Source: Pseudomonas sp. BSw22131
GTDB taxonomy: Bacteria; Pseudomonadota; Gammaproteobacteria; Pseudomonadales; Pseudomonadaceae
DNA: 64,000 nt
Assembly: GCF_026810445.1 (NCBI RefSeq)
Contig: NZ_CP113949.1
Location: 1,922,001-1,986,000, forward strand
Direction: 5' to 3'
The stretch's first letter is position 1, and every line of letters starts with the position of its first letter. Shown in pieces: positions 4,446-8,376 of this stretch. The notes under the pieces are model-generated. The model made no database searches and was not told the DNA's origin. It saw only the letters and a program-made list of their open reading frames with translations. The position numbers and the translations under genes were made by a program.

Positions 4446-5771
4446 ATGTCTTTCAATATCGGCCTTACAGGGCTCTATGCAGCGAATAAAAGTCTCGACG
4501 TGGCCGGCAATAACATTGCCAACGTGGCGACTGTGGGCTTCAAATCTTCCCGTGCGGAGTTTGCAGACCAATATTCAAATTCGATTCGTGGCACTTCTGG
4601 CAGTTCAAATGTCGGCAGCGGTGTATATACGTCGACTGTTTCGCAGCAGTTTACCCAAGGCGCCCTGACCACTGGCACTGGCCGTGACCTGGACCTTGCG
4701 ATCAACGGCAACGGCTTCTTCATGATGAGCAACAACGGCGAGAAACTTTATACCCGCGCCGGCAGTTTCCACACTGATTCGGCGGGATACGTCGTCGATA
4801 ACAGCGGCAATAACTTGCAGGGCTACAGCCTCGACGGCAGCGGCAACGTGGCCGCCGGCGTATTGACAGACCTGCGCGTGGACTCTTCGAACATGGCGGC
4901 GAAGGCCACCAGTACCATGAAAATCGAGTCGAACCTGGATTCGACGAAGCCGATCATTACCGCCGCATTCGATCCCAACGACGTGACCACCTACACCACG
5001 CCGTTGCACACGCCGATCTACGACAGCCAGGGCAATTCACACACTCTGGACCAATATTTTGCGAAGACGGGGACCAATTCCTGGACCATGTACTCGCTGA
5101 TCGACGGCCGTAATATCTCCAATCCGGGCACCACACCGGTTGTTCCCGATCAGACGACTATCACATTCGACTCATACGGCAAGCTGGTGACGACCCCGGC
5201 TCCAACCTCGACGCCCAACGTGGGCATCAACGCTGACGGTACATATCAGATCCAGAACTGGACGCCTGCGACCAGCACCACTGTCGGTTCGACCACTACC
5301 TGGACCTCCAACGGCGCTGTCGGCAACACCGGTGGCATCAAGCTGGACATGCTGGCAACCACCCAGAACAATGCAACGTCGGGCGCATCGGCCAAGAGTC
5401 AGAACGGCAATGCCGTGGGCCAGATCAGCGCCATGAACGTCGATTCGAGTGGCAATCTGTTTGCCACCTACACCAACGGTCAATCCAAGGTGATCGGTCA
5501 GGTGTCGCTGACCTCGTTCGCCAACGTCCAGGGCCTGGCTCCAGCGGGCGGCACCGCATGGCGCGAAACGTTTGCTTCGGGTGTCCCAGTCAGCGGTTCG
5601 CCGCAAACCGGTACGCTGGGCAACCTGACCGGGTCTGCACTGGAAGAGTCCAACGTGGACCTGACCGGCGAGCTGGTTAACCTGATCAAGGCACAAAGTA
5701 ACTATCAGGCGAACGCGAAAACCATTTCGACTCAAAGCACCATTATGCAAACCACTATTCAGATGACCTGA
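4446..5771 (+). CDS. flgE: Flagellar hook protein FlgE
   Basis: Structural subunit of the hook. 441 aa. The N-terminal D0/D1 part (SFNIGLTGLYAANKSLDVAG, NNIANVATVGFKSSRAEFAD) and the C-terminal part (ESNVDLTGELVNLIKAQSNY) are canonical. One D2-type domain begins near residue 175 (FDPNDVTTYTTPLHTPIYDS, then LDQYFAKTGTNSWT) and ends with a Thr-rich stretch near residue 271. GCAGGAG precedes the ATG. A strong terminator follows, ending flgBCDE. A second FlgE-like gene starts 276 bp further on. Confidence 0.97.
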   Translation: MSFNIGLTGLYAANKSLDVAGNNIANVATVGFKSSRAEFADQYSNSIRGTSGSSNVGSGVYTSTVSQQFTQGALTTGTGRDLDLAINGNGFFMMSNNGEKLYTRAGSFHTDSAGYVVDNSGNNLQGYSLDGSGNVAAGVLTDLRVDSSNMAAKATSTMKIESNLDSTKPIITAAFDPNDVTTYTTPLHTPIYDSQGNSHTLDQYFAKTGTNSWTMYSLIDGRNISNPGTTPVVPDQTTITFDSYGKLVTTPAPTSTPNVGINADGTYQIQNWTPATSTTVGSTTTWTSNGAVGNTGGIKLDMLATTQNNATSGASAKSQNGNAVGQISAMNVDSSGNLFATYTNGQSKVIGQVSLTSFANVQGLAPAGGTAWRETFASGVPVSGSPQTGTLGNLTGSALEESNVDLTGELVNLIKAQSNYQANAKTISTQSTIMQTTIQMT

Positions 5772-5796
5772 TAACGGTCGCTGTCCTGCGGTGAAT

Positions 5797-5826
5797 AAAA
5801 GCCTCTTTGCGAAGAGGCTTTTTTTT
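5797..5826 (+). terminator. Intrinsic terminator after flgE
   Basis: GCCTCTT-TGCG-AAGAGGC, flanked by AAAA and a run of eight T, makes a strong hairpin. It separates flgE from the second hook-like gene. Confidence 0.93.
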
Positions 5827-6047
5827 ACCTTTTATTTAGTGCGGTACAGCATGGCGTTATTTACTTAATCCCCGCAGAAAATATATAGAGACGTCCCACT
5901 GCATAACTAGAAAATTCCTACTTTCGATACTGCGAGAATAAAAACGCGACTACATGACTTCGCTCGGTAATTGACGGGCAAGGCATATTTCGCGACACCA
6001 ATCCGCTTATCAATGGAAGTGTCGTCTCCGACGGCTCGGGAGTGTTC

Positions 6048-7853
6048 ATGTCTTTCAATATTGCAGTGGCCGGTTTAAAGGCTTCTCATAAACGGCTTGA
6101 AGTGGCAGGTAACAATATCGCCAACGTGGGGACGGCGGGTTTCAAATCGTCGCGAGCAGAGTTTTCAGCGGTCTATGCATCTACCCATCTGGGCGGCGGC
6201 GCCGCGACAGGCAGTGGTGTGCGGCTGGCCAATGTTTCGCAGAACTTCAGTGCCGGCAGTATATTGACCGGTGCGGAGCGCCAGCTTGATATGCGCATTC
6301 AGGGCAAGGGTTTTTTTGTCATGAGCGATGGCGGTTCGCTGAGCTACAGCCGGGCAGGTGCCTTCCAGAAGGATGCCAATGATTTTGTCGTCGATAGCCA
6401 TGGCAGCCGCTTGCAGGGCTACGGCGTCAACGCCAAGGGTGAGGTGGTCAGCGGCATGCGCACAGACCTGATGATCGGGTCCGCCAACCTGTCGCCCAAG
6501 GCCACGAGCGAGATAGGGCAAACCATCAATCTCGACGCCTCGGCCGCGTCACTCGCCGCGCTGCCAGTGTTCAGCCCTGACGACCCCGGCACCTACACCC
6601 GCGTTCATGTGCAGACTATTCAGGACGCCGGGATGCCGGCAGTCAAAGAGGTCAAGGGTAAGGACGCCAGCGGCAACGAGGTGATCATTACGCACGCCCG
6701 CGCCGCCATTCCACCTCGGGACCATGAGCTCAAGCACTACGTTGTGAAGGCCGACGACGCGCAATGGACGTCTTATGTGTTGATCGATGGCGTTAATCCG
6801 TTTGATCCGTCAAGCCGCTCGCCGCTGCAAATGGGCCTGACCACATCCCCGGGCGGCCACCTGGTGCTGAGCGCTGCGAATGCTGCTGTCGACAAGGTGT
6901 CGGATACCGAGCTTTCACTGCGTAACTGGGTTCCCGCGCAGCAGGTCAATGGGAGCTGGAATGCCAGCGGCGCGGCTAATGCGGGCCCGGTTCCACTGGC
7001 GCTGATCGACGGCGCGACCCCGCTGCTCAATGACGCCGATGCATTGATGACGCGACCGGTGCCGCCGTTCGATCCCAACGATACAACCACTTTCACCAAG
7101 CGCTTTCCCAGCCCCATTTACGACAGCCTCGGCAACCGGCACGACCTGGATCAGTACTTCGTCAAAGAGGGAAGCAACAGCTGGACGCTGCACGTGTTGG
7201 TGAATGGGCGTAACCCTGCGGACCCGACCAGCACGACCCCAGTAACGGCAAGTGTGGTGTTCGATTCCAATGGCGCAGTGCAGTCGTTGACCGGTGGCGC
7301 CGGATTGAGCGCCAACAATGGAAAGTTGACGCTTGGCGGATGGCTGCCTGCCAGGCAAGGCGATGCCCACAGCGGTGGGCACTGGAAGCCCAATGGTGCG
7401 GCAGGCAACGTTGACGGTATTGCCATCGATCTCAACAAGCTCACTCAGCACAACGCCGAAACGGCCCGTCTGTCGCCGCAGATCGACGGACACGCAGCGG
7501 GGCATATCGTCGGTCTGACGATTGACGGCAGGGGCATCATGAGCGCCAGTTTCGACAACGGGCTGCACCGCCAGATTGGTCAGGTCATGCTCGCCAGCTT
7601 CGCCAATGAACAAGGGTTGCAGCCCACCAGCGATACGCGCTGGCGCGAGACTCACGACTCCGGCGTCGCCGAATACGATGGCGCGGGTACCGGATCGTTG
7701 GGAGCGGTGGTGTCGGGTTCGCTGGAAGGGTCGAACGTCCAGTTGACCGATGAGCTGGTGGAACTGATCCAGGCACAGACCTCGTATCAAGCCAACTCGA
7801 AAACCCTATCCACCGAAGCCGAATTGCTGCAAACCCTCATCCGCGCCACGTAA
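6048..7853 (+). CDS. Second FlgE-like hook protein with duplicated D2 domain
   Basis: A full-length hook-protein paralogue of 601 aa. Its N terminus (MSFNIAVAGLKASHKRLEVA, then GNNIANVGTAGFKSSRAEFS) and C terminus (SNVQLTDELVELIQAQTSY) match the flgE product above, so it should enter the flagellar export and assembly pathway. The extra length is a second central domain: one copy starts near residue 175 (FSPDDPGTYT, ending at NWVPAQQ near 293) and another near residue 341 (FDPNDTTTFT, ending at GWLPARQ near 431). The second copy is closer to the single D2 of FlgE; the first has an insert of about 28 residues. I chose ATG 6048 over GTG 6042 because CGGGAG is correctly spaced. No sigma-54 or sigma-28 box is apparent upstream. 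It may replace, mix with or modify the main hook; its role is unknown. Confidence 0.9.
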   Translation: MSFNIAVAGLKASHKRLEVAGNNIANVGTAGFKSSRAEFSAVYASTHLGGGAATGSGVRLANVSQNFSAGSILTGAERQLDMRIQGKGFFVMSDGGSLSYSRAGAFQKDANDFVVDSHGSRLQGYGVNAKGEVVSGMRTDLMIGSANLSPKATSEIGQTINLDASAASLAALPVFSPDDPGTYTRVHVQTIQDAGMPAVKEVKGKDASGNEVIITHARAAIPPRDHELKHYVVKADDAQWTSYVLIDGVNPFDPSSRSPLQMGLTTSPGGHLVLSAANAAVDKVSDTELSLRNWVPAQQVNGSWNASGAANAGPVPLALIDGATPLLNDADALMTRPVPPFDPNDTTTFTKRFPSPIYDSLGNRHDLDQYFVKEGSNSWTLHVLVNGRNPADPTSTTPVTASVVFDSNGAVQSLTGGAGLSANNGKLTLGGWLPARQGDAHSGGHWKPNGAAGNVDGIAIDLNKLTQHNAETARLSPQIDGHAAGHIVGLTIDGRGIMSASFDNGLHRQIGQVMLASFANEQGLQPTSDTRWRETHDSGVAEYDGAGTGSLGAVVSGSLEGSNVQLTDELVELIQAQTSYQANSKTLSTEAELLQTLIRAT

Positions 7854-8360: not shown

Positions 8361-8376
8361 TGGTTCGATTATTGCT
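8361..8376 (+). promoter_or_regulatory. Sigma-54 promoter of the flgFGHIJKL operon
   Basis: TGGTTCGATTATTGCT keeps TGG, CG and TTGCT of the consensus, with ten bases between GG and GC. It lies 55 bp upstream of the GTG start of flgF. Weaker than the flgB box but well placed. Confidence 0.75.

Follow-up and report, generated by a model that had tools for sequence, protein, structure and literature searches.

The diameter and stiffness of the flagellar hook are usually regarded as fixed by one subunit. Hook proteins with an extra domain at or near the edge of D2 considered here are represented by the FlgE proteins of Campylobacter jejuni and Caulobacter crescentus (PDB 5jxl, 5az4 and 5ay6), whose D3/D4 inserts are described as other folds in passages of PMC5069557 and are carried by the main FlgE. 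According to the same source, placing the D3-D4 part of the C. jejuni protein near Thr167/Pro168 in Salmonella gave almost wild-type spreading and a wider, working hook of 25.1 nm. The D3-D4 strain swam at roughly two thirds of the wild-type speed, and insertion of D3 by itself prevented flagellation (PMC5069557); tolerance of an insert is therefore not automatic.

The locus reported here is comparable in the position of the insert, but differs in that the insert is another D2 and in that it is carried by a second gene. It was found in the window, the whole stretch of 64,000 nucleotides from Pseudomonas sp. BSw22131 (NZ_CP113949.1, positions 1,922,001 to 1,986,000) that was analysed. The names flgE2 and FlgE2, and D2a (residues ~172-335) and D2b (~336-483) for its two D2-type domains, are labels coined in this analysis; the FlgE2 of Helicobacter pylori (PDB 5npy) shares the name through this labelling, and its sequence match is limited to the N-terminal part. 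A literature search found no paper on this FlgE2 paralogue; the phrase "two flgE genes" occurs in a Bdellovibrio paper (PMC2277423).

The flgE2 gene and its two D2 domains

The first-pass annotation proposed that a complete FlgE paralogue lies right after flgE, that its central region holds two D2-type domains where FlgE itself has one, and that the ends needed for export and polymerisation are kept. Each of these points is borne out by the features of the locus and by the comparisons given below.

4446 to 5771, + strand: flgE, the normal hook protein of 441 aa with a single D2 domain (open reading frame and Pfam)
6048 to 7853, + strand: flgE2, the second hook protein of 601 aa with two D2-type domains (open reading frame and profile searches)
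6048 to 6542, + strand: N-terminal D0/D1 part of FlgE2, residues 1-165; F39 and Y43 occupy the position of the export gate recognition motif
6561 to 7052, + strand: D2a, the extra D2-type domain, residues ~172-335, with a variable loop
7053 to 7496, + strand: D2b, the canonical D2, residues ~336-483
7497 to 7850, + strand: D1/D0 C-terminal part of FlgE2, residues 484-601

The flgE2 frame is unbroken from the ATG at 6048 through the stop to 7853 and begins 276 bases downstream of the end of flgE. FlgE2 scores above the Pfam cut-offs for the N-terminal Flg_bb_rod, D1, D2 and the C-terminal Flg_bbr_C, so both termini retain the FlgE/F/G families, and it reaches 448.9 bits, summed over three stretches, against the NCBIfam FlgE equivalog NF004238 (cut-off 400). 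It lies under the cut-offs of the remaining FlgE equivalog models, as does the FlgE of the window for several of them. Scores with FlgE models far exceed those with FlgF, FlgG or FlgK models, and the matches of FlgE2 in its own genome fall in one flg cluster. Public records name the protein "flagellar hook protein FlgE", a name that conceals the existence of a second gene.

Pfam FlgE_D2 matches two stretches in FlgE2 and one in FlgE. This agrees with the two hits anticipated by the first-pass annotation, with the qualification that, when the copies are scored separately, copy 2 reaches 88.7 bits whereas copy 1 stops exactly at the curated cut-off with 22.7 bits and aligns to no more than profile positions 35-113 of 142. 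Direct comparison of the two copies gave a Smith-Waterman score of 139, with a maximum of 53 among 1000 shuffles, and 41 of 111 positions identical; a profile-profile comparison of 33 first with 33 second copies gave a probability of 99.9% and an E-value of 2e-33. Since these two tests support it, the D2 duplication is independent of Pfam, and the homology of the copies is far beyond chance. The repeated order of motifs that had been described was likewise found, with W..P at 294/296 and 432/434, YVVK/YFVK and NP in both copies and SPIYDS in copy 2 only, while a loop of variable length is present in copy 1 and absent from copy 2.

In a structure model of FlgE2, which was aligned whole with Foldseek and VIA, D2a and D2b are each predicted with good confidence, and copy 1 appears to sit within the edge of the canonical D2, past its first strand. 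D2a falls between the residues aligned to Salmonella FlgE ~159 and Thr167/Pro168, within about eight aligned residues of the site mentioned above. Profile comparison with D2b and with the D2 of FlgE assigns D2a to the D2 type, and it is thus not an insert of D3/D4 fold.

Conservation, distribution and origin of FlgE2

The core of FlgE2 is conserved. Among 100 core positions that are at least 97% invariant in 80 FlgE proteins, 74 have the same residue in 90% or more of 34 FlgE2 proteins and five are replaced. The gate recognition motif region was defined from the constructs described in PMC8983047, among them one of FlgE with residues 39-43 deleted. FlgE2 has F39 and an aromatic residue at position 43 in this region; F39 and Y43 are invariant in 58 of 58 FlgE2 proteins, and in a further comparison they occur in 34 of 34 and 33 of 34, respectively. 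Residue 41, which is one of the five replaced positions, is D in 79 of 80 FlgE proteins (the other has a gap there) and A in all 34 FlgE2 proteins.

Purifying selection on FlgE2 equals that on FlgE. In 67 matched pairs from 27 species the median dN/dS of FlgE2 was 0.150 for D0D1, 0.268 for D2a and 0.216 for D2b, and that of FlgE was 0.150 for D0D1 and 0.260 for D2. These figures leave out the P. cerasi locus (L055), which has a frame change near the N-terminus, and including it (71 pairs) made little difference (0.148, 0.260 and 0.215 for FlgE2; 0.137 and 0.254 for FlgE). Values from unmatched pairs (35 FlgE2 and 200 FlgE pairs), 0.074-0.152 against 0.149-0.292, were superseded by the matched pairs.

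The survey of pseudomonads that had been proposed for a gene beside flgE did recover it. A search with a D2a profile matched 28 of 398 Pseudomonas species genomes at E ≤ 2e-55, among them that of the window, and the next-best match in this set was 1.3e-25, in a 444-aa frame. In a draw of 298 genomes from the family, nine carried FlgE2 at the same threshold, all of the window's genus and six of them already among the 28. The names of carriers include P. syringae, P. amygdali, P. viridiflava, P. graminis and P. petrae. In P. syringae B728a, where flgE is Psyr_3478 and flgF is Psyr_3476 according to a passage of PMC3329529, the numbering suggests that flgE2 is probably Psyr_3477. Two one-D2 FlgE frames of 446 aa each, about 3 kb apart, were seen in another Pseudomonas (G092, C44:31240-36914).

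The immediate surroundings were followed in 31 named flgE2 loci (L036-L066), drawn from the best 80 of 299 relatives. Within these best 80, the flgE2 frame is intact in 28 of the 31 loci, and in 27 of the 31 an intact flgE2 lies immediately behind a normal one-D2 flgE; the remaining intact locus (L060) starts at a contig edge. In the genus survey, 25 of the 28 carriers have a single frame from N- to C-terminus. The exceptions are G126 (L041), with an in-frame stop, G192 (L055, P. cerasi), with the frame change already mentioned, and G299 (L116), where the frame is broken and a full-length flgE match is present; in L041 and L055 the broken gene adjoins an intact flgE. Broken copies thus number three of 28 survey genomes and three of 31 named loci, with two genomes common to both sets. 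The third broken named locus is L053 (P. graminis PDD-13b-3, 5190-6968), in which the D2a part is inverted within flgE2; this inversion could be real or an assembly fault. Since flgE2 is rare in the genus (28 of 398) and broken in three of the 28, it would be dispensable; the broken frames of L041, L055 and L116 reflect either such dispensability in some lineages or, in part, sequencing faults.

The origin of FlgE2 was addressed with a core tree rooted by 14 outgroup FlgE proteins, for which about a third of the FlgE rows from L070-L115 were retained before building. It held 35 FlgE2 rows and was repeated with 34, L055 being left out; the 35-row tree and a core tree without outgroups included L055, which misses an N-terminal stretch. 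In the rooted tree the FlgE2 cores form one clade (100/100), sister to P. putida-group FlgE, including that of L067, L068, L069, L072 and L085 (100/99), and the co-resident FlgE cores form a separate clade (100/100). Eleven diagnostic columns tie FlgE2 to P. putida FlgE and one ties it to its neighbours, although seven of the eleven also show the commonest outgroup state. The tree without outgroups could not discriminate the origin. Forcing FlgE2 and co-resident FlgE together was 31 log units worse (p-AU 0.005), and 30 log units worse without L055 (p-AU 0.009). Local tandem duplication of the adjacent flgE, which the first-pass annotation had taken as the starting event, is thereby rejected by the rooted core tree. 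Since the common clade is rejected, FlgE2 seems, as judged by these trees, to be an older paralogue or a transferred gene and not a derivative of the neighbouring flgE. The two share D0, D1, the canonical D2, the C-terminal families, purifying selection and the flg cluster, but the FlgE of the window does not group with FlgE2 in the rooted trees.

The second part of the earlier proposal, an internal duplication, is compatible with the trees. A rooted D2 tree, from which the sources of five long rows and 11 near-duplicate species were left out, joined D2a, D2b and the P. putida D2 on one side (99/96), and sisterhood of D2a and D2b was not rejected (AU p = 0.28). A larger, unrooted tree of D2 units conflicts with this in placing D2b with non-putida FlgE D2. 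The rooted tree is preferred for the placement of D2b, although it has 136 columns and the long stem of D2a makes long-branch pull possible.

The number of D2 units varies among relatives. Eight of the 120 homologues listed are proteins of 739-740 aa with three D2 units spaced 138-139 aa; no four-copy protein was found among 120 listed proteins. One of the eight, from Pseudomonas sp. JUb42, shows the same strand pattern three times in predicted secondary structure, and its model has a mean pLDDT of 69.9. On the core tree without outgroups, the copy number must have switched between two and three at least twice, and the first copies of both three-copy groups cluster with 94/95 in the unrooted unit tree and 86/36 in the rooted D2 tree.

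Two D2 domains are also found in FlgE of some members of the P. putida group, with 584-587 aa in the five loci named above (within the best 80 of 299 relatives). In three of three genomes checked (G081, G157 and G227), a two-D2 frame of 591-592 aa is the sole FlgE found, unlike FlgE2. The D2 units of two P. putida-group proteins compared are 60-62% identical to each other, and this duplication is therefore separate from and younger than that of FlgE2; by this measure, some P. putida-group strains have doubled the D2 of their only FlgE independently. Judging from their sequences, this suggests that a two-D2 subunit alone can form a working hook. The FlgE of two records labelled Pantoea sp. (L086 and L100) falls within the P. 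putida group, and these labels are likely wrong. A 565-aa FlgE from another family (L204, G661) has two partial D2 matches, at 174-225 and at 313-363, which may reflect another duplication of D2. In the order-wide genomes G641, G683, G673, G645 and G650, frames with FlgE matches reach 1163-1584 aa; as seen from the frames alone, very large inserts may be a common feature of hook proteins across the order.

The region between flgE and flgE2

The terminator after flgE and a conserved promoter-like element ahead of flgE2 are newly described here. They are listed with two sites that serve as a contrast.

2780 to 2795, + strand: perfect sigma-54 site before flgB, 11/11
5797 to 5822, + strand: intrinsic terminator after flgE, stem of 11 pairs with T tail
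5886 to 5899, + strand: upstream box TAGAGACGTCCCAC of the conserved promoter-like element, resembling the downstream box
5908 to 5921, + strand: downstream box TAGAAAATTCCTAC, which would overlap the -35 region
5931 to 5939, + strand: predicted extended -10, TGCGAGAAT
8361 to 8376, + strand: sigma-54-like site before flgF, 9/11

A similar hairpin with a T run is present in all 29 aligned flgE-flgE2 intergenic regions. The element of the window consists of GA-N4-TCCCAC, ten bases, GAAAATTCCTAC, nine bases and TGCGAGAAT, with the upstream and downstream boxes 22 bp apart. It was recognised in 30 of 30 loci examined, namely the 29 aligned regions and L053. The pattern TCC(C/T)AC-N9-TG-N-GA(G/C)A(A/C)T fits 28 of the 29 regions (L037 has GAGCAT), the spacer from box to -10 being 9 in all 28, whereas the upstream box is less strict in relatives. 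Columns conserved at 90% or more amount to 23 of 52 inside the element and 3 of 50 outside it (28 regions). The element stands at no fixed distance from the start codon, in most cases 63-68 or 130-149 bases, as for a promoter. The core pattern, at up to three mismatches, has one match in this genome, as does the 19-base box. A simple sigma-70 scan did not report the element, and Rfam gave no match at gathering score between flgE and flgE2, with weak matches around the terminator. We infer that the element is a promoter in need of an activator, its two boxes being separated by two helical turns; the motif TTCCTA may resemble the half-sites of RcsB/BvgA-type regulators.

Unlike flgE2, the flgE of the window belongs to the run of genes that follows the flgB sigma-54 site. 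No site of the TGGCAC-N5-TTGC type was found between flgE and flgE2 in the window, where the best GG-N10-GC candidate scored 6/11; the best scores in the regions of relatives were 4-8 of 11, with 9 in L055, within its coding part. Over the window, the pattern with two mismatches occurred 48 times against 50.8 by chance, and therefore only the perfect flgB site counts. On this evidence the promoter-like element of flgE2 is conserved, private to this gene and different from the sigma-54 site that precedes flgB.

Function of FlgE2 and the mechanics of the hook

We consider it somewhat probable that FlgE2 is a working hook subunit with the extra D2 stacked outside the ordinary one, which makes an alternative or mixed hook under separate signals. 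What the sequences display in this regard is the homologous D2 pair, the conserved core, the purifying selection, the placement, the promoter-like element and the insertion near a permissive site. The two-D2 FlgE of the P. putida group, the sister lineage, also speaks for this reading, whereas the limited tolerance seen in Salmonella, the dispensability of flgE2 and the change of D41 to A speak against it. The cell's flagellar export system would export FlgE2, which would polymerise through its D0/D1 core under the FlgD cap, either with FlgE or replacing it. A hook or hook segment containing FlgE2 would carry more mass on its outside and would probably be stiffer. Set apart from the hook operon by the terminator, flgE2 would have its own promoter, and a signal that is not part of the sigma-54 flagellar cascade would determine what share of the hook FlgE2 takes.

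It seems unlikely that FlgE2 is instead a minor subunit at a fixed place, for instance at the hook base by the L-ring or at the tip near FlgK. The main hook protein is kept, with a normal flgE beside flgE2 in 27 of the 28 intact named loci, and the confinement of own-genome matches to one flg cluster also agrees with such a role, but the wide lead of FlgE models over those for FlgF, FlgG and FlgK argues against it, as does the sister lineage, which includes strains where a two-D2 protein is the only FlgE.

An exported surface or secreted protein that exposes its D2 array as adhesin, immune decoy or phage-receptor mask is very unlikely in our estimate. It is the exposed D2 part that varies in copy number, two or three, and, going by their names alone, many of the named carriers live in association with plants; yet the D0/D1 core is constrained as much as that of FlgE and D2a evolves like any D2, with dN/dS of 0.27 against 0.26. 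The same low probability is given to the view that FlgE2 is a remnant, of little functional importance, of a flgE that is old or was acquired by transfer, since the patchy distribution and the broken copies in G126, G192, G299 and L053 are set against a single complete frame in 25 of 28 survey carriers, dN/dS of 0.15-0.27 over the 67 pairs and conservation of the promoter-like element. Least probable of all is a competing export substrate that tunes FlgE export or hook length and is not built in, for although D41 of the gate recognition motif region is replaced by A, F39 and Y43 are retained and the conserved doubled D2 is left unexplained.

If FlgE2 is a working hook subunit, a cell that bears it may be capable of making its flagellar joint thicker or of mixed composition. 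It is possible, though we hold it doubtful, that a subset of pseudomonads swaps or blends hooks in this way, using a P. putida-type protein with two or three D2 domains behind a private activator-dependent promoter to thicken and stiffen the joint for a surface or host condition. Across hook proteins, a single type of core is combined with one, two or three D2 domains, which constitutes a natural series. Because this series is combined with a second hook gene and a separate promoter-like element, two questions become directly testable: whether D2 copy number sets the diameter and bending stiffness of the hook, and whether regulation lets a cell change its hook. If subunit swapping is true, the mechanics of the hook would be subject to regulation and, in the course of evolution, graded by the number of D2 copies.
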